A DNA stretch of 21,124 nt. It comes from a virus. The notes under the pieces were generated by a model. It worked only from the letters and a program-made list of their open reading frames with translations. It was not told the origin of the DNA and did not search any database. The translations under genes were made by a program, and so were the position numbers. Positions 7,556 through 21,043 of the stretch are shown one piece after another (positions within the stretch are counted from its first letter, which is position 1; the number at the start of each line of letters is the position of its first letter). The stretch is from IMG/VR virus record IMGVR_UViG_3300025646_000459, positions 1-21,124 of that record, one strand, 5' to 3'.

Positions 7556-8533
7556 TTACTTTCCTTTAACGACATCGTTTGCGGTAATAATTTCAGTTTC
7601 TGCAAATGCCATTGTGACTTCATATGCAACTGGGGCAGGACCACTCAATCCAGCTCCTGCAGTATTAATATGGGTTGCCCAAACATTATCTGGAGTATAA
7701 TTAACTTGAATATTTTTTAGCACACAAGGTTTGATTTGTGGAAGTGATTGAATTGATGTTTGAGTTCCAGCCTGTTTCCATTTTAAATCAAAGATGTTTG
7801 GAACAGTTAACCATCTGTCTTCTAATTTGGATATTACATTGTATATTGCAGGAGGTTGTGCTCCTTGATTTTGAATTGGTCCACTACCACTATAATTAGG
7901 CAGTGAATAGTATCTAAGAGTTTTGATAATGTTATGAATTCTGACCTGTTCAGATGCATTTCTAGGAACTAATTTCCAAGAAAAATTAAACTCTCTCATC
8001 GCAATTCCTTTGAAAATCTGTTCGACATACGGATTTAATATTTTCCCTCCAATGCCACTGGTCAATGCTTCCGCTGGTGGTGCTCCTGGAATATTTTTGA
8101 TTGCGTTTAAAATAAATTCTGCAGTTCCAGCACCCGCCATTGTACTAATCATATTACCGATTTGACCTGGATCGTTTACTGCTGCTCCTGCTAGGCCAGG
8201 TAACATTTTACCTAACATCCCTATATTTTCAGAAGACCAAGATAGTTGATCGTTATAGTTAATATCATTTGGAACTGGCAATAGCACAGTTGCCATGGTT
8301 TTACGTCTACTCGGAGTTGTTGCTCGTTTATTATTAATTACTTCATATACATCTGCACTTTGAACATCAGTAACAAAAGGATTTGCTTGCGTCCCTAAAT
8401 TAGTATTAGCAATCGGAACATACTCCATAATATCAATTTGGAGCATATCTAACATTTCTCTTTTATCAGGCCAATATAAATCCTTATCAAAAGATTGTTG
8501 GGTATATCCTTTATTTACTGTTGTAAGGGCCAT
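7556..8533 (-). CDS. 48: Baseplate tail-tube cap protein gp48
   Basis: In T4, gp48 sits on the baseplate hub and, with gp54, starts tail-tube polymerisation. The 325-residue product (T4: about 364) has an N-terminal MLQIDIMEYVPI segment, a Gly/Ala/Met-rich helical middle (residues about 108-150), and a motif run NPYVEQIFKGIAMREFNFSW then KLVPRNASEQVRIHNIIKTL. It finishes with the beta-rich YTPDNVWATH and YEVTMAFAETEII segments. The last two parts match the tube-fold strands and are what I recognise as the cyanophage gp48 signature. It is first in a leftward two-gene unit with gp53. The start codon overlaps the late promoter for the opposite gene. A tube-initiator (gp54) identity is less likely but not excluded. 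Confidence 0.78.
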   Translation of the reverse strand: MALTTVNKGYTQQSFDKDLYWPDKREMLDMLQIDIMEYVPIANTNLGTQANPFVTDVQSADVYEVINNKRATTPSRRKTMATVLLPVPNDINYNDQLSWSSENIGMLGKMLPGLAGAAVNDPGQIGNMISTMAGAGTAEFILNAIKNIPGAPPAEALTSGIGGKILNPYVEQIFKGIAMREFNFSWKLVPRNASEQVRIHNIIKTLRYYSLPNYSGSGPIQNQGAQPPAIYNVISKLEDRWLTVPNIFDLKWKQAGTQTSIQSLPQIKPCVLKNIQVNYTPDNVWATHINTAGAGLSGPAPVAYEVTMAFAETEIITANDVVKGK

Positions 8534-8538
8534 AAATA
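8531..8538 (+). promoter_or_regulatory. T4-type late promoter for the gp4 structural operon
   Basis: CATAAATA on the + strand matches the NATAAATA late -10 element used by gp55-type sigma in T4-like cyanophages (T4: TATAAATA). Transcription would start near 8544, about 26 bases before the gp4 ATG. It overlaps the gp48 start codon on the other strand. No sigma70 -35 is needed or seen. Confidence 0.7.
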
Positions 8539-8564: not shown

Positions 8565-8572
8565 TATTTATG
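8565..8572 (-). promoter_or_regulatory. T4-type late promoter for gp48-gp53
   Basis: TATTTATG on the + strand reads CATAAATA on the - strand, a late -10 element. It would start RNA near 8559, about 26 bases before the gp48 ATG. It overlaps the gp4 start codon. Together with the + strand element it forms a mirror-image divergent late promoter. Confidence 0.7.
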
Positions 8573-10397: not shown

Positions 10398-10432
10398 CCT
10401 AAATAAATTGAGATTATGTTATAGTATTTACT

Positions 10433-11143
10433 ATGCCTTTACCAAAAATTGTAACACCGACGTATGAATTGCGTTTACCATCAACAGATCAATTAGTTAA
10501 ATACAGACCATTCCTAGTAAAAGAAGAGAAAGTTCTTCTCATGGCTATGGAATCTGAAGATGAATCTCAGATGATTAATGCAGTGAAAACAATTCTAAAA
10601 AATTGCATTATTTCTAAAGTTAAAGTTGATGACTTAGCTGTATTTGATATAGAATATCTATTCCTCAATATTCGTGCAAAGTCTGTTGGTGAACAGATTG
10701 ACTTAAACATTACATGTCCAGATGATGGAGAAACTGTAGTTCCTATTGAACTCAATGTTGAAGATATTCAGATTCAAAAGTCTGAAGATCATTCTAGAAT
10801 TATTCCATTGAATGATACAATTTCTGTTGTAATGAAATATCCTAGTATGGAAATGTTTGTTAAAACAAACTTTACTGCTAATGCAAAAACTGAAGATGTA
10901 TTTGAAATTGCTGCCTCTTGTATTGAGCAGGTTGTAGAAGGTGAAGATGTATATGAAACTAAGAGTTTTAGCAAAAAAGAAATTAATGAGTTTCTAGATA
11001 GTTTGGATACAGCTCAATTTTTGTCAATTCAAAAATTCTTTGAGAGTATGCCAAAATTATCCCATACAGTTAAAGTTACTAATCCAGTAACTAATGTTGA
11101 AAGTGATGTTGTATTGGAGGGTCTTGCGTCTTTTTTCGCATAG
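10433..11143 (+). CDS. 26: Baseplate hub assembly protein gp26 (upstream half of a probable frameshift pair)
   Basis: The 236-residue protein begins MPLPKIVTPTYELRLPSTDQ, with LVKYRPFLVKEEKVLLMAME and the helical AVKTILKNCIISKVKVDDLA, FDIEYLFLNIRAKSVGE, and a CPDD turn. This is the T4 gp26 family (T4: 208), required for hub assembly. The C-terminal half is again helical (SFSKKEINEFLDSLDTAQFL). The gene ends in-frame at TAG 11141-11143, immediately after a run of six T. A TTTTTTC heptamer, an internal GGAGGG and a downstream stem-loop suggest that some ribosomes shift by -1 here and continue for 62 residues into a gp51-like segment. Short and long forms would be 236 and about 297 residues. Confidence 0.82.
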   Translation: MPLPKIVTPTYELRLPSTDQLVKYRPFLVKEEKVLLMAMESEDESQMINAVKTILKNCIISKVKVDDLAVFDIEYLFLNIRAKSVGEQIDLNITCPDDGETVVPIELNVEDIQIQKSEDHSRIIPLNDTISVVMKYPSMEMFVKTNFTANAKTEDVFEIAASCIEQVVEGEDVYETKSFSKKEINEFLDSLDTAQFLSIQKFFESMPKLSHTVKVTNPVTNVESDVVLEGLASFFA

Positions 11144-14093: not shown

Positions 14094-17051
14094 ATGGAAA
14101 AGTTAACTCCAGTTAGACCAGCTTCCATTATCGGTAATACTCGTCTCAAAGAATTGAAGACGATAAAAGGTGTTGCGACTAATTTAATTTCACAGAAAAA
14201 GAAAAATTTTGATCTAGAAAAAAAGTTTTTTAAAGTCGAAAAGGATTCAATTACTAGAGCTAGGTCATTAGAAAAAGAAAGACAGCAAGAACAAAAGAAA
14301 CCGAAGTCGGGTGCGGCTGCAATAAAAAAAGAAATCAAAGAACAGTCAGTAAAGTTATATGATTTGTTCAAATTTTTTGTTGGATATAAAGTTCTTCAGT
14401 GGATGTCTAAAACTGAGAATATAAAGTCTCTTGGTGAAATTGCAAAGGCAATGCAGAACATATTCAAGGTAATTGATTACCTTGCTGGAATTGGGGTTGA
14501 AGGTGTTCTTGGTGGATTACATAGTGTTTTATTTGGAGGAAGTTTTCTAGAAAGATTCTTTGGAGTGTTCAAAGCCATCGGTGGGCTTTTTATTATCAGA
14601 AGATTATTATCTCCAGGTAAAATACTTAAAGACATTGCTTGGATTCTAAAGAATAAAAAAAATATTAGTAGAGTATTCAAAGCAATAGGTTCTGGTAAAT
14701 TCAAAGAAGCTATTGGAAGAATCTTTAAATTATTAAATCCAACTTTGTATACTACATATACAAAAGGTTTAACTGCTGGAATTAAAAGAGTAGTTTTAAA
14801 AGTATTTGGTAAAAATGCATTAAAATTTCTAACTAAAGTAGCATCTAAAATTGGATTTGCATCTGCAAAGCAATTTGTAAAAAATACTATAAAGACTGCT
14901 GCCAAACCATTAAGTAGAATTCCTTTAGTTGGTCCTATACTTGGATTTGGACTCAACTTAATTTTTGGTGATCCATTAGATAAGGCGGCAGTCAAACTAA
15001 TTGGATCTAGCATTGGTGCCTGGCTTGGTGGTATTGTTATGGGAGCATTGGGAAGTATTATCCCAGTTGCTGGAACTGCTGCAGGTGCTGGATTTGGAGC
15101 TGTTGTTGGTGGGCTAGTTGGAGATTGGGTTGGGGATAAACTATATGGATTCTTCAAAGGATTTACTGCACCAAAAGAACCTGCTCTTGCAGTTGGTGGT
15201 ATTGTAACAAAACCAACTAGAGCACTTATTGGTGAGGCAGGACCAGAAGCAGTTATTCCATTGCCTAGAATTTATGATGGCACTATATTAAATGCTCCAA
15301 TTGGCATAGTTGCATCTTCTATGATTGGTGGAATGGATGCAGTTATAACTTCACTTGGACCTATTGGATTAACAATTCGTCCATATGCATCTAGTTTATT
15401 ATCACCTTATCGAAGAGAATTTGGATCAAGTAATTATGTATTTACTTCCAATATTCGTGGTGCTACTAATGAATTTGATATCAAAGAATCAAAAGTAGAT
15501 AACAAAGAAGTTGAAAAAATAATTGGTTTGAATAAAACTTTGAATATCATTTCAAAGAAGGAATCTACTGATGAATCTAAAAAGTCTAGATATAATTCTG
15601 GCAATAGCATCAGAGAAATTCTTGCTGATATTTTAAACAATATTATTAACTTAGATTTTACTAAAAAGAAATCCACAAGACCTAGAAGACCAGGAGATCC
15701 TACTGGAGATATTGGTGATCTTACTGGTGAAGTAGATTTGTCATCTGCAGATGATAGAACATTATTAAAACAACTTGCACTTGCAGAAGCTGCTGGTGAA
15801 GGTGTAATTGGAATGGCACTTGTAGTTAATTCAGTACTGAATAGAAAGAGAATACTGGATGGTGGGAAATCTGCAGGGTTTTATGGTGCGAATGATAAGA
15901 GTATTCGTGGAATCATTTATGGTTCAGGACAATACACCCCAGTCAGTAATGGGAGTATAAACAAACAGTGGGGACAAGGATCATTAGATCTTGCCGAGAA
16001 AGCCCTCCAAATGGGTATGGATAAAACTAAGTTGAAGTCTGCACTAGAAGCTGAAGGTCTTAGTGGCAATACCGTAAAGTATTTAATTAATGCAACTGGA
16101 TTTAGAAACTATGCAGCAGGAGCAGAAATAGATACTTCTCAGCAAGTGAACGAAACGAATTATAAGAGACACACATTTAATACTGCTGGTGTTGCAAAGA
16201 TGCAACAAGGTGGATTAGTTTCCAGGGGAGATATTACTAGTAAGTTTGGAAATAAAGAACAATTTAGAAAACATGCACATGAAGGCATAGATATTGCGTT
16301 TGCTTCTGGAACACCATTATCTTTTAATTTGGGTGGACAGTTTATAAAAATTGGTAGAACTTCTAGTATAGAAAAAGAAGCGAATGGTGGTTATGGTCAA
16401 TATATGGATGTGAAATTAACTGATGGAAAAATTGCCAGACTTGCACATTTAAGTTCTATACCATCATGGGTAAAGGAAGGACAAAGTTTTAATCCAAATT
16501 CAGTTATTGCAATGAGTGGTGGAGTTCCAAAAACTCCAGGTGCAGGTAGATCTGGTGGAGCACATTTACATTTAGAGCAACATACCACGAAAAAAGATTT
16601 AGCAGAAACTTTAAATGGTAAAGTTGATCCGTTGACTCAAGGATTATTTTCATTACTGAGAAAAGGTGGAACTCCTGGTCAAACAACGTCTCCAGCTGCA
16701 CCTTCGACCACACCTACTGCACCAGCTGATAGTGTTGCTCCAGCAGAAGAAACTGAATCAACTGACCCAGCATTTAATCCAACTGATGTAGCGAATAATC
16801 TTGCAAAGTTGTATCAAATGTTAAATGCTCCAGCCAAATTCAATGGAGCACAAATGGAAAAAGATAGTATGGAACATCTTCAGGCATTTAAAGACTTTGC
16901 TCCATCGCCAGATACATATATTGTAATGGGTGGAACAAATATAGTATCATCTACTAATCTGATAACACCAATGAAATTTCCAGACTATTCTACAGGATCA
17001 TTTTCTACAATAGATAGTTCAATGGCATTCAATCTCAAAACAAGACTCTAA
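14094..17051 (+). CDS. Large tail/baseplate protein with SleB-type hydrolase and M23 peptidase domains
   Basis: The 985-residue protein is a paralogue of the one before it, sharing FFVGYKVLQW (94-103), GGIVTKPTRALIGEAGPEAV (368-387) and a VANNLAKLYQMLNAPA box (899-914). A glycine-zipper hydrophobic segment (about 302-349) may cross or enter a membrane. Residues about 553-695 resemble the SleB-type cell-wall hydrolase: LKQLALAEAAGEG with Glu565, VVNSVLNR, and a GSGQYTPV turn. Residues about 711-850 are an M23 zinc peptidase: HEGIDIA (His729, Asp733), LAHLSS (His785) and GAHLHLE (His824, His826), all ligand and catalytic positions present. So it can probably cut both glycan and peptide bonds. 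One base separates it from the gene before; it overlaps gp27 by TAATG. Whether it is the tape measure is uncertain. Confidence 0.75.
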   Translation: MEKLTPVRPASIIGNTRLKELKTIKGVATNLISQKKKNFDLEKKFFKVEKDSITRARSLEKERQQEQKKPKSGAAAIKKEIKEQSVKLYDLFKFFVGYKVLQWMSKTENIKSLGEIAKAMQNIFKVIDYLAGIGVEGVLGGLHSVLFGGSFLERFFGVFKAIGGLFIIRRLLSPGKILKDIAWILKNKKNISRVFKAIGSGKFKEAIGRIFKLLNPTLYTTYTKGLTAGIKRVVLKVFGKNALKFLTKVASKIGFASAKQFVKNTIKTAAKPLSRIPLVGPILGFGLNLIFGDPLDKAAVKLIGSSIGAWLGGIVMGALGSIIPVAGTAAGAGFGAVVGGLVGDWVGDKLYGFFKGFTAPKEPALAVGGIVTKPTRALIGEAGPEAVIPLPRIYDGTILNAPIGIVASSMIGGMDAVITSLGPIGLTIRPYASSLLSPYRREFGSSNYVFTSNIRGATNEFDIKESKVDNKEVEKIIGLNKTLNIISKKESTDESKKSRYNSGNSIREILADILNNIINLDFTKKKSTRPRRPGDPTGDIGDLTGEVDLSSADDRTLLKQLALAEAAGEGVIGMALVVNSVLNRKRILDGGKSAGFYGANDKSIRGIIYGSGQYTPVSNGSINKQWGQGSLDLAEKALQMGMDKTKLKSALEAEGLSGNTVKYLINATGFRNYAAGAEIDTSQQVNETNYKRHTFNTAGVAKMQQGGLVSRGDITSKFGNKEQFRKHAHEGIDIAFASGTPLSFNLGGQFIKIGRTSSIEKEANGGYGQYMDVKLTDGKIARLAHLSSIPSWVKEGQSFNPNSVIAMSGGVPKTPGAGRSGGAHLHLEQHTTKKDLAETLNGKVDPLTQGLFSLLRKGGTPGQTTSPAAPSTTPTAPADSVAPAEETESTDPAFNPTDVANNLAKLYQMLNAPAKFNGAQMEKDSMEHLQAFKDFAPSPDTYIVMGGTNIVSSTNLITPMKFPDYSTGSFSTIDSSMAFNLKTRL

Positions 17052-18373
17052 TGAATCAAGAATTTCCTGGAGATTTTTCTCTAAAATCAATAAAACTATA
17101 TCCTATTCCTGCTGTCAATAGAAGTGAACGTACCTTTGTGGATATTAAAGAACTTGTTCAGGAAGTTACTTTTTATCAAAGTATTATTTCTACCAGTTTA
17201 TATTGTCAACTTGTAGTTAACGATATTGGAGAAAATTTAATTGAGACTTTACCTTTGATTGGACGAGAGAGAATTGAATTAAATATCTCAACACCATATG
17301 CAAAGTATGATTTAAATTTTTATATTCATAAAATTGATGGTCGAGTGATGCAAGAGAAGAACCAAGTTTATGTGGTTCATGCTGTGAGTAAAGAAGCATT
17401 AGATAATGAATACACTAGAATTCGTGAAAGAGTAGATGGGAAAAAAGCAGAAGTATTTCTAGAAGAAAAACTAAAAGCAATAAGCAAGAAGGAATTTAAA
17501 AAGAATGTAGATGCTACACTATATCCATTTGATATGTATGTTCCTAATTGGAGATTATTTGATACCGCAATATGGATGTCTCGTAGAAGTGTTCCAGTCA
17601 AAAATAAATCTTCAGTTGGGTATTTGTTCTATGAAACATTTGATGGATATAATTTTAAATCTCTAGATACTTTATTTGATGCAGATGCATATCCAAACAA
17701 AACAATTAAATATACTTTTGTCCAGGGAAATACTGATGCATCTAGAACAGATTTTAATAATTATAGGATTATGAATTATTCATCGACTAAAGCTTTTGAT
17801 ATTTTAGATGACCTTCGCAATGGAGCTTTTGCACATAATGCATTGTACGTAGATATTAATAATCGTAATTTTCAAAATTGGAATACTAATGTATCAACAT
17901 ACTGGAAAGATATGAGTCATCTCAATAAAATGACACCATACCAGGATACAGATTTATTGAAAAGACCATCTAGATTAATCTATAGACCTACAACTACGTC
18001 AACGTTTGGATGGAAAGATTTATCAAATGAAGACATTGAAAACTTAAATAATGTAGATGAAGTAAATAAAAATTATGAAAAGTCTATCTATAGATATTAC
18101 TTCCTAGAATATAATAAATTAGAAATTGCTATTCCTGGAGATTTAAAAATACAACCAGGGTATGTCATTAATGTTTCGATTCCTTCACCAAAAAGAACTA
18201 AAGATAACAAAGTAAAAGAAGACACTAGATTAAGCGGAAGGTATATTGTTCATTCTGTCAAGCATACCATCCTAAATAGAACTGAACTTAGAACTATTGC
18301 TACATTAACGAGAGATTCATTCGGTGGCAATGAAATCAAAACAACTAATGTACCCAGCGGAGCAACATTCTAA
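17051..18373 (+). CDS. 27: Baseplate hub protein gp27
   Basis: In T4, trimeric gp27 forms the hub cup on which gp5 sits. The 440-residue protein (T4: 391) has an N-terminal KLYPIPAVNRSERTFVDIKE and VTFYQSIISTSLYCQLVVND. Next comes LIETLPLIGRERIELNIST with an IHKIDGR strand, and then QEKNQVYVVHAVSKEALDNE. This last run, with a strand ending in a V-x-H-x-x-S-x-E-A turn, is the gp27 signature. FDILDDLRNGAFAHNALYVD and the C-terminal LEIAIPGDLKIQPGYVINVS fit the later tube-like domains. It overlaps the 985-residue protein (TAATG) and abuts the CP12-like gene. Position before gp5 supports the call. Confidence 0.85.
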   Translation: MNQEFPGDFSLKSIKLYPIPAVNRSERTFVDIKELVQEVTFYQSIISTSLYCQLVVNDIGENLIETLPLIGRERIELNISTPYAKYDLNFYIHKIDGRVMQEKNQVYVVHAVSKEALDNEYTRIRERVDGKKAEVFLEEKLKAISKKEFKKNVDATLYPFDMYVPNWRLFDTAIWMSRRSVPVKNKSSVGYLFYETFDGYNFKSLDTLFDADAYPNKTIKYTFVQGNTDASRTDFNNYRIMNYSSTKAFDILDDLRNGAFAHNALYVDINNRNFQNWNTNVSTYWKDMSHLNKMTPYQDTDLLKRPSRLIYRPTTTSTFGWKDLSNEDIENLNNVDEVNKNYEKSIYRYYFLEYNKLEIAIPGDLKIQPGYVINVSIPSPKRTKDNKVKEDTRLSGRYIVHSVKHTILNRTELRTIATLTRDSFGGNEIKTTNVPSGATF

Positions 18374-18589
18374 ATGGATAAAAATATAGATCAACATATT
18401 GATCGCAATCGAGATGAATTAATAGATTGCAATGTCAATTCCCAAAGACGTAGATTTCTAGAAAGTGAACTAGAATCATTAATTAAATATAAAGAAGCTC
18501 ATCCAACTAAAACAGAAGATCCAAGTCCATTAGATTTATTCTGCAACGAAAACCCAGACGCTCCTGAATGCCGTATCTACGAAGTGTAA
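18374..18589 (+). CDS. Small CP12-like protein within the hub operon
   Basis: The 71-residue protein starts directly after the gp27 stop with no gap. The N-terminus is polar and helical (DRNRDELIDCNVNSQRRR), with a single Cys19. The C-terminus PLDLFCNENPDAPECRIYEV (52-71) looks like the GAPDH-binding tail of CP12, whose usual form is C-x-x-NP-x-x-x-EC-x-x-Y-D/E. Cys57 and Cys66 would be the redox-active pair. Spacing from an ELESL helix to Cys57 also resembles CP12. The central AWDxVEEL motif and the second N-terminal Cys are missing, so the PRK-binding loop looks incomplete. Cyanophages are known to carry CP12, which shuts the Calvin cycle towards NADPH production. A structural role that merely reuses the motif cannot be excluded. 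Confidence 0.6.
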   Translation: MDKNIDQHIDRNRDELIDCNVNSQRRRFLESELESLIKYKEAHPTKTEDPSPLDLFCNENPDAPECRIYEV

Positions 18590-18592
18590 TAA

Positions 18593-21043
18593 ATGTCAAT
18601 CAATCCTACATTACAAAATTCTGCATTCCTTGGTAATAATGATTTCACTTGGTGGCTAGGCACTGTAGAAAATCCTGATGATCGAGATGCTAAACTGGGT
18701 AGAGTTCGTGTAAAAATTCTCGGTTTCCATGATCCATTTGAGAAGCCAGAAAATTTACCATGGGCACTTGTTCTTCAACCAACTACTAATGCTGCCACCA
18801 GTGGTATTGGAAACGCTGCTAATGCGGGATTGAAAGCAGGTAGCTTTGTAATGGGATTTTTCTTAGATTATCCTGACTGCCAGCAGCCTGTAGTCATGGG
18901 TTCATTCTACAGTCAAATCAGACCAATTTTTGCAGATCCAGATAGCCTTGCAGCTGCAAATAATCCTGGAATTGTAAATGTAGTAACATCTCAAGAATCT
19001 AAAACTGGACAACCACAAGATGCAGAAAGAACTAATGATGCAGGTGGGCTTGCATCAGATTCTGTTGCAGCTGCTTCTCTTCCTGCATCTCCATCTAATC
19101 CATCTGGTAATTTAGGTGCAACTTCTATTGCAGATGGTAAAGATGGTCCAGCAAAAACACTCGCAGAAGATATTAAAAGATGTATTGAAGGACTTGGAAA
19201 TATATTTAAAACTGGAGTTGTATATAATCCAAACGCAACTAGTCCAAAATTAGCAAGAGACTTATCAATAGAGGAACATTTTGTTACAGTTAGTAATGTT
19301 GCAGCATTTCCTCCAATTGGAGTCATTCAAATAGGAAGTGAAAAGATTGGGTATAATGGAAAAAATGAAAAGTCTTTGGTTAATATAAAAAGAGGACTAC
19401 AAGGAACAACACCTACTGCACATTCTTCTGGAGCTTCAGTTAAATATATCAAAAAAACTGATACTCCTATTGAAATCTATGGTAAATTTACAAATAAAGT
19501 TGTAGATTTAAAGACTGCTGTAGATAGATGTATTAAAGTAATTAGAAATTTAGTTTGGTATATTGTCAATAAAGTTAAATCTTGGTTGATGGAAGAAGTC
19601 ACCAGAATTTTAAATAATATTGGATTGGGTGCAAGTAGTCCTATTCCATATTTTGTTAAAACTATTACTGAAGTTGTAGTTCAAGTTTTACGAACTATTG
19701 CATGTACAATTGATGAAGCATTAGTAGATGCATTGATGAATGGAATCGAAGGATTCATAAGGGACTTCGTTGAAAATATGGCTAATGATTTATTAGAATT
19801 GGCAGATAATTATATTCGATTTGCAGAAGAATGTGTTAATAATATATTTGGATCTATTTTTGAAATTGTAGCAATTGGAACTGAAATTGCAAGTGCTATT
19901 CAAGGTATTATTTCATTAATAAAAAGTGTTGGTAATATTGGAAAGATGGGAGATTTATTTGATGAGAAAGGATTTGTAAATGCAAACATGCTAGCCAATA
20001 TTGGAAATATAGTTGGGTTTATTTTAAATTTACTTGGTATTGGTTGCAATAAGACTACAGATTCTCCATTGCAAATTGATTGGAATGAATGTGCATTGAC
20101 AGGCAATAATTGCAACCCATTCAATTTTAGAGTTACTAGTAATATTGCAGGTAAGTGGAATCCAGAATATTCAAAGGTTTTTGTTCAGGCTTCTGAAGCA
20201 GGTCATGCTATTGTTATGGACGATACTCCATATCATAATAGACTTGTAATTGAAGCTGCTGGAAGTAGAACTGGATTTCAGGTTGATGATGATGGAAACA
20301 TTCGTGTCACTAACAGTAATAATAAAGTAGAGGTTACTTTTGGCAAGCAAGAAGTTACCATCATGGGAGATGCCCATGTAAAAGTAAAGGGTGATTATCA
20401 CTTAAAAGTTGGAGGTAACTACCATCTAGAGGTTGATGGACAATATAATGTGTTTGCAAATAGAGAAAGTAAAATAACTTATAACGGAGAACACGAGACA
20501 ATTTATAGTAATGATGCCAAACTAAGTGCAGCAAATGGATTAGCAATCACTGGGTCTAAAATAGGTCTCAGTGCATCTGGGCAGTTGGATATGTATGCGC
20601 CAACATTTAGCACTGTTTGCACAGAACAAAATCACTTACTATCTGGTTCATGGAATTTATTTGCAATGTATGAAAACAAATATATTGGCTTGAATAAATT
20701 TTGCTTGGTTGGAGGAAATAAAATCAATCTTCGTGCAGGTACAAATACGGATATTGGAACTGGAGTATCTAATAAATTCCAAGCAACTGCGGAAAAAGTT
20801 TGGAAAGGTGGGTTATATAATACTACAATTATGGGAGTGAATAGTGTTAATCGTTTAGGTATTAATAATGATATCACGAAGGGAATAACATCAAACAGTA
20901 GATTAGCTGTTCAAGTGGAAACAGTTGGTGGAGCTAATTTCTGTGTTACTGCAGCCCCAGAATCAAGGAGTGTAGAGGGGCCATTGTTAGATGAGAGTGC
21001 TTCATTTGCAATGAGAATAGCACCTGCCATCTTCGATACATAA
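18593..21043 (+). CDS. 5: gp5-like baseplate hub/spike protein without lysozyme domain
   Basis: The 816-residue protein begins with a gp5/VgrG OB-fold (about 15-110: WWLGTVENPDD, LGRVRVKILGFHDPFE, LPWALVLQP, GSFVMGFFLDYPDCQQPVVM). A low-complexity Ala/Ser/Pro stretch follows (112-185). Next is a small beta domain with FPPIGVIQIGSEKIGYNGK (about 225-285). Then comes a long hydrophobic helical region (about 298-490) with several Cys. From about 520 it turns beta-rich, with strand repeats VKVKGDYHLKVGGNYHLEVDGQYN (split over 596-619), the triple beta-helix seen in the T4 gp5 needle. I find no T4-type lysozyme between OB and needle; T4 gp5 is 575 residues with lysozyme at 174-339. It closes the late operon. 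Confidence 0.85.
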   Translation: MSINPTLQNSAFLGNNDFTWWLGTVENPDDRDAKLGRVRVKILGFHDPFEKPENLPWALVLQPTTNAATSGIGNAANAGLKAGSFVMGFFLDYPDCQQPVVMGSFYSQIRPIFADPDSLAAANNPGIVNVVTSQESKTGQPQDAERTNDAGGLASDSVAAASLPASPSNPSGNLGATSIADGKDGPAKTLAEDIKRCIEGLGNIFKTGVVYNPNATSPKLARDLSIEEHFVTVSNVAAFPPIGVIQIGSEKIGYNGKNEKSLVNIKRGLQGTTPTAHSSGASVKYIKKTDTPIEIYGKFTNKVVDLKTAVDRCIKVIRNLVWYIVNKVKSWLMEEVTRILNNIGLGASSPIPYFVKTITEVVVQVLRTIACTIDEALVDALMNGIEGFIRDFVENMANDLLELADNYIRFAEECVNNIFGSIFEIVAIGTEIASAIQGIISLIKSVGNIGKMGDLFDEKGFVNANMLANIGNIVGFILNLLGIGCNKTTDSPLQIDWNECALTGNNCNPFNFRVTSNIAGKWNPEYSKVFVQASEAGHAIVMDDTPYHNRLVIEAAGSRTGFQVDDDGNIRVTNSNNKVEVTFGKQEVTIMGDAHVKVKGDYHLKVGGNYHLEVDGQYNVFANRESKITYNGEHETIYSNDAKLSAANGLAITGSKIGLSASGQLDMYAPTFSTVCTEQNHLLSGSWNLFAMYENKYIGLNKFCLVGGNKINLRAGTNTDIGTGVSNKFQATAEKVWKGGLYNTTIMGVNSVNRLGINNDITKGITSNSRLAVQVETVGGANFCVTAAPESRSVEGPLLDESASFAMRIAPAIFDT

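Follow-up and report, generated by a model that had tools for sequence, protein, structure and literature searches.

A short CP12 gene between the gp27-like and gp5-like baseplate-hub genes of a cyanophage

CP12 is a protein of carbon metabolism, and the question raised by the locus described here is why a gene for it should stand between two genes of a phage baseplate hub. The locus is part of a viral DNA stretch of 21,124 nucleotides (IMG/VR record IMGVR_UViG_3300025646_000459, positions 1 to 21,124), referred to as the window. Phage CP12 is among the main candidates for the means by which infecting cyanophages halt carbon fixation. Cyanobacterial and plant CP12 proteins inhibit GAPDH through a C-terminal disulphide loop, and in plants the AWD_VEEL core and an N-terminal cysteine pair matter for the binding of PRK. 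The cyanophage cp12 gene itself and its place in the hub are already known. The present survey adds that phage and picocyanobacterial CP12 have a single short form in common, which lacks the PRK-binding core, and that cp12 comes in two upstream arrangements between which timing can be compared.

Identity and genomic position of the gene

The open reading frame at 18374-18589 on the plus strand encodes a product of 71 amino acids, MDKNIDQHIDRNRDELIDCNVNSQRRRFLESELESLIKYKEAHPTKTEDPSPLDLFCNENPDAPECRIYEV, the C-terminal end of which reads LFCNENPDAPECRIYEV. In a Pfam search, this product matches PF02672 (CP12) with an E-value of 8.5e-12 and a score of 46.1 bits (cut-off 22.7); residues 6-70 align with profile positions 2-70 of 70, essentially the whole domain, and the match is far beyond chance. 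The PHROGs search returns phrog_627, a family annotated as of unknown function (E 3.8e-18), and in a phmmer search of the PDB the top ranks are taken by CP12 chains (6gfo, 3zdf, 6kez, 3b1j, and 3qv1), aligned over the C-terminal part. By these Pfam, PHROG, and PDB matches the gene is a CP12 of the picocyanobacterial/cyanophage type, with a Cys57-Cys66 loop, CNENPDAPEC, and an RIYEV end. The C-terminal cysteines stand eight residues apart around a central proline (C57-P61-C66), and 10 of the 13 residues from C57 to Y69 are the same as in the CP12 of 6gfo/3zdf. On residue identity and cysteine conservation, codons C57 to V71 (18542-18586, plus strand) are predicted to encode the GAPDH-binding loop and tail. 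An AlphaFold model of the product has a mean pLDDT of 89.9, and its best Foldseek match is the full-length CP12 in 6gfo, a weak one (E 0.38) with no significant match found; as the model has just three helices, its fold carries little information. The gene is a CP12 and a member of a known T4-like cyanophage gene family (T4-GC 337, PHROG 627), as a reading made from the sequence alone had proposed and as the profile search it called for now establishes.

That sequence-only reading had also placed the gene correctly between its neighbours. Upstream lies a gp27-like hub gene (17051-18373, plus strand; phrog_350 tail protein, E 9.3e-93), the TAA stop of which abuts the ATG of cp12 with a gap of 0. 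Downstream, the ATG of a gp5-like baseplate hub gene (18593-21043, plus strand; PF06714 Gp5_OB, E 3.4e-10) follows 3 nt past the cp12 stop, and its product also matches baseplate hub and tail lysozyme PHROGs.

Elsewhere in the same operon, gp26 (10433-11143) ends in ...TCT TTT TTC GCA TAG, with a slippery site, T TTT TTC, at 11131-11137 and a gp51-like reading frame in the -1 frame, open to about 11324 (FFRIALAHESLENFFRVNF...MIPWEREIYVQMLIDHIEEEN). TTTTTT[C/T] is present in the same frame at 59/59 distinct gp26-gp51 junctions from the window and related viral contigs, and the gp26 stop lies 2-3 codons past the site in 75 of 80 loci. By analogy with the lambda G/GT tail chaperones, the arrangement resembles a programmed -1 frameshift that would give a gp26-gp51 fusion. 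The title of an article by Vladimirov et al. from 2022 on T4-like tail chaperones (cited in PMC10885494) reportedly argues for a mechanism other than frameshifting; cyanophages may differ from the mechanism which that title announces.

A tblastn search of annotated phages with the cp12 product finds 385 records with E-values no higher than 10, of which 365 cover at least 80% of the query, and nearly all of them are cyanophages. The products are named 'CP12', 'CP12 carbon metabolic regulator', or 'carbon metabolic regulator', and many are 'hypothetical protein'. S-CBS4, a phage that is not T4-like, has a weak match only. Matches in the Campylobacter phages CP21 and CP220 (E about 0.7-3), considered as a hub-linked CP12 with a non-photosynthetic host, were dropped as chance because that in CP21 falls within a hypothetical gene of 451 codons. 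A gp27-like tail gene and gp5 flank cp12 in S-SZBM1, ACG-2014b, S-RSM4, P-SSM4, S-T4, DSL-LC03, S-PRM1, and S-CAM4, with cpeT and other genes sometimes inserted between cp12 and gp5 in phages with this arrangement; in P-HM2 and MED4-213 it adjoins talC. Among 177 sequence clusters, 148 have cp12 in the hub and 29 have it elsewhere (talC-linked or other), a fraction that is not an unbiased estimate, since phage CP12 queries were used to assemble the sample. The gp27-gp5 slot is the commonest place of cyanophage cp12 and not an exception, and the location 'near gp5' was recorded by Sullivan 2010 (PMC3037559). The hub position had been taken as unusual in the sequence-only reading, a view that neither the cluster counts nor the existing annotations of many phages sustain.

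So close an association invites the explanation that the protein is a CP12-derived structural or assembly component of the baseplate hub, placed between gp27 and gp5 for that reason. The prevalence of the hub position and the junctions of 0-3 nt with gp27 and gp5 in the window speak for such a role. Against it, the linkage to hub genes is common and not strict, as the clusters with cp12 beside talC or elsewhere show; S-PM2 is without cp12, and the gene is listed under carbon metabolism and is absent from non-cyanophage T4-like phages (Sullivan 2010, PMC3037559). The C-terminal GAPDH-binding signature is also kept. A conserved GAPDH-binding end together with free movement of the gene favours a metabolic role, and a structural one is very improbable; recruitment of the CP12 tail for a structural task, as once suggested for this locus, is hard to square with homology over the full length, copies outside the hub, and the lack of cp12 in S-PM2.

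Exactly one CP12 was found in each of 14/14 complete phages and 11/11 IMG/VR relatives. The idea that the phage might carry a second, canonical CP12 gained nothing from these 25 relatives, in none of which was one found. The gene in the hub is most likely the sole CP12 of its source phage, a reading that rests on the relatives because the window's own record, at 21 kb, is too short to show it directly.

A short form shared by phage and picocyanobacterial CP12

The N-terminal cysteine pair and AWD_VEEL, which define the canonical CP12 subtype, are both absent from the window protein, much as the sequence-only reading had stated, with a lone Cys19 present. The comparison of CP12 sequences took in 80 cyanobacterial loci, most of them picocyanobacterial, and 350 phage loci, taken from named phages and from IMG/VR, of which 242 differ in protein or upstream sequence. 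AWD occurs in 0/242 phage and 0/80 host proteins. The C-terminal cysteine pair is kept in 242/242 phage and 80/80 host proteins, that is in all 322, so the poor conservation that would have told against a CP12 did not appear. A cysteine beyond this pair is present in only four of the 242 phage proteins, the window protein included, and its Cys19 is a private feature that is not conserved. In a joint alignment of phage and host proteins, the invariant positions are R27, E32, L33, L36, and Y39 in the helical half and C57, P61, E65, and C66 in the C-terminal half. Judged from this alignment, phage and host CP12 are laid out alike, and what had been taken for a missing half is read as a different but conserved helix.

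Selection acts on the whole of this short form. Within the closest clade, the pairs with a finite dS give dN/dS values of about 0.07-0.29; in several pairs, synonymous changes are close to saturation. The last 23 codons have accumulated fewer replacement changes than the first 48, though the first 48 are also constrained, and both halves of cp12 are under purifying selection.

These data bear on the proposal that the phage protein is a phage-specific 'half-CP12' which has shed its PRK-binding part and sequesters GAPDH alone. The absence of both AWD_VEEL and the N-terminal pair, and the slower evolution of the C-terminal part relative to the N-terminal one, would agree with it. Its claim to be a phage modification fails on the hosts, for picocyanobacteria have the same layout, so that the phage has shed nothing. 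Some positions of the N-terminal half are invariant in phages and hosts alike, pN in this half is well below pS, and the CP12s of Synechococcus elongatus and Galdieria, which are without the N-terminal pair, still form the ternary complex (PMC9406205). A phage-specific 'half-CP12' is, on balance, unlikely. With one short form in phages and hosts, PRK binding bears on how phage and picocyanobacterial CP12 both regulate the Calvin cycle.

In a tree built on only 75 columns, with weak resolution of the inner forks, phage and host CP12 are split by one branch with a support of 99. The window protein groups with phage and not host CP12, and its nearest rows are those of hub phages. This tree is in line with an old acquisition from a host and with no recent exchange within the sample. 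The CP12 of P-SSM2 (T4-GC 63; locus L027, 5938-6204) is very divergent, with a long branch and insertions, and its gene lies among unrelated small genes.

Upstream sequence and timing of expression

The late promoter motif of S-PM2 is NATAAATA (PMC2984593). A motif search of the window gives four occurrences of ATAAATA, fewer than the 11.2 expected by chance. Two of the four form a divergent pair (8531, 8572) heading the minus- and plus-strand tail blocks: late-promoter-like CATAAATA at 8531-8538 on the plus strand, 39 nt before the first plus-strand gene of the hub block (8570), and late-promoter-like ATAAATA at 8565-8572 on the minus strand, directed to the gp48/gp53 block. A relaxed late-like TAAATA (CTAAATA) at 10400-10405 on the plus strand precedes the start of gp26 (10433) by 33 nt. 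This puts the nearest motif in a promoter-like place about 8-10 kb ahead of cp12. A closer TAAATA, at 18273 and about 100 nt short of cp12, is internal to gp27. In the window lineage, there is no promoter-like site of its own before cp12.

Related loci fall into two arrangements. TAAATA is found 23-37 nt before the cp12 ATG in 84 of 95 roomy clusters of any neighbourhood (25/29 non-hub clusters and 59/66 hub clusters with a gap of at least 16 nt) and in 2/82 hub clusters of the tight class, with a gap of at most 15 nt. The window belongs to the tight class, and its nearest relatives are equally tight to within a few nucleotides. Among named phages, S-T4 and DSL-LC03 are of the tight class and P-SSM4 is of the spaced one. 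The split between spaced and tight clusters has a Fisher p of 1e-30, a statistic that ignores the relatedness of clusters, and in a control interval 60-74 nt before cp12 the motif was not found in non-hub or spaced hub loci. For 27 of the 59 spaced hub cases, part of the motif is supplied by the gp27 stop codon (TAA+ATA), which raises the chance rate there; the non-hub cases are independent of this overlap. The same test at other starts finds the motif before gp5 in 35/136 and before gp27 in 18/129, so other genes have such a site too. A late-promoter-like (N)ATAAATA precedes cp12 by 28-32 nt in related loci of each kind, whether in the hub, next to talC, or elsewhere (for example, in loci L024, L025, L026, L029, L034, and L037). 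It is as if cp12 moved with its own promoter in these related loci.

Two cyanophage CP12 transcriptional classes can tentatively be drawn from this split. In one, cp12 would have its own late-type promoter wherever it is placed; in the other, spacer and promoter would have been lost and cp12 tied to the translation of gp27 from the hub transcript. If this reading is true, the Calvin-cycle brake in the class of the window comes later and scales with tail-hub production. For the window lineage, cp12 is most likely translated as part of the long hub mRNA in coupling with gp27, and we infer hub-coupled late expression there, as the sequence-only reading had expected, with a confidence that is evenly balanced. 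Position and coupling may instead be without regulatory meaning, the slot being one of tolerated insertion and the timing the same with or without a promoter-like site; this has a possible but less than even claim. It draws on the 17 changes between hub and non-hub position on the tree, at least three of them forced by starred branches, and on the insertion of cpeT and other genes between cp12 and gp5. In P-HM2, CATAAATA stands 32 nt upstream of cp12, and the gene is classed as a middle gene and highly expressed in light infection (PMC5082946); a middle gene with this motif shows that timing does not follow from motif and position. The motif split itself weighs on the other side, as it suggests two transcriptional arrangements.

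Proposed role and comparison with known CP12 proteins

We hold with high confidence that the window protein is a member of the broad CP12 family with a metabolic role. Most likely, judging from its sequence, it slows the Calvin cycle by binding host GAPDH with its C-terminal disulphide loop. A short CP12 of the picocyanobacterial type would have been acquired from a host in the past by T4-like cyanophages. Under oxidising conditions, a Cys57-Cys66 disulphide would close the C-terminal loop, and the closed loop would dock in the active-site cleft of the host photosynthetic GAPDH (Gap2) and inhibit it. The slower Calvin cycle would leave NADPH and ribose to phage nucleotides, and the conserved N-terminal helices have probably kept a partner or complex-forming role, with PRK a candidate partner. 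The basis of this explanation is homology, single copy in relatives, conservation, gene order, and motif absence, while GAPDH binding, redox control, and timing are its inferred parts. No binding assay on a phage CP12 was found in the literature searched. Counted against the explanation are the missing AWD_VEEL and N-terminal pair and a structural match that is not significant alone.

The closest known counterparts are the cyanophage CP12s of T4-GC 337 / PHROG 627 (P-HM2, P-SSM4, S-RSM4, S-SZBM1, S-CREM1, and ACG-2014b), which have the same length, motifs, and single copy and often share the hub position; identity to the best named phages listed is up to 56%. Unlike these named cyanophages, the window has no spacer between gp27 and cp12, no late-like site before the gene, and no cpeT between cp12 and gp5. 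Picocyanobacterial CP12 resembles the window protein in its length of about 70 aa, its C-terminal cysteine pair only, and its lack of AWD_VEEL, and the two share RH...EL..L..Y and C..NP...EC. The phage proteins form a separate clade, with a middle two residues shorter, and have (D/N)P..S.Q.RR where the picocyanobacterial host has A.A.GN..K.RH. Canonical CP12 of Chlamydomonas, plants, and many cyanobacteria shares the domain profile and the C-terminal GAPDH-binding loop with the window protein but has N- and C-terminal cysteine pairs and AWD_VEEL, whereas the window protein has the C-terminal pair and lacks the N-terminal pair and AWD_VEEL.
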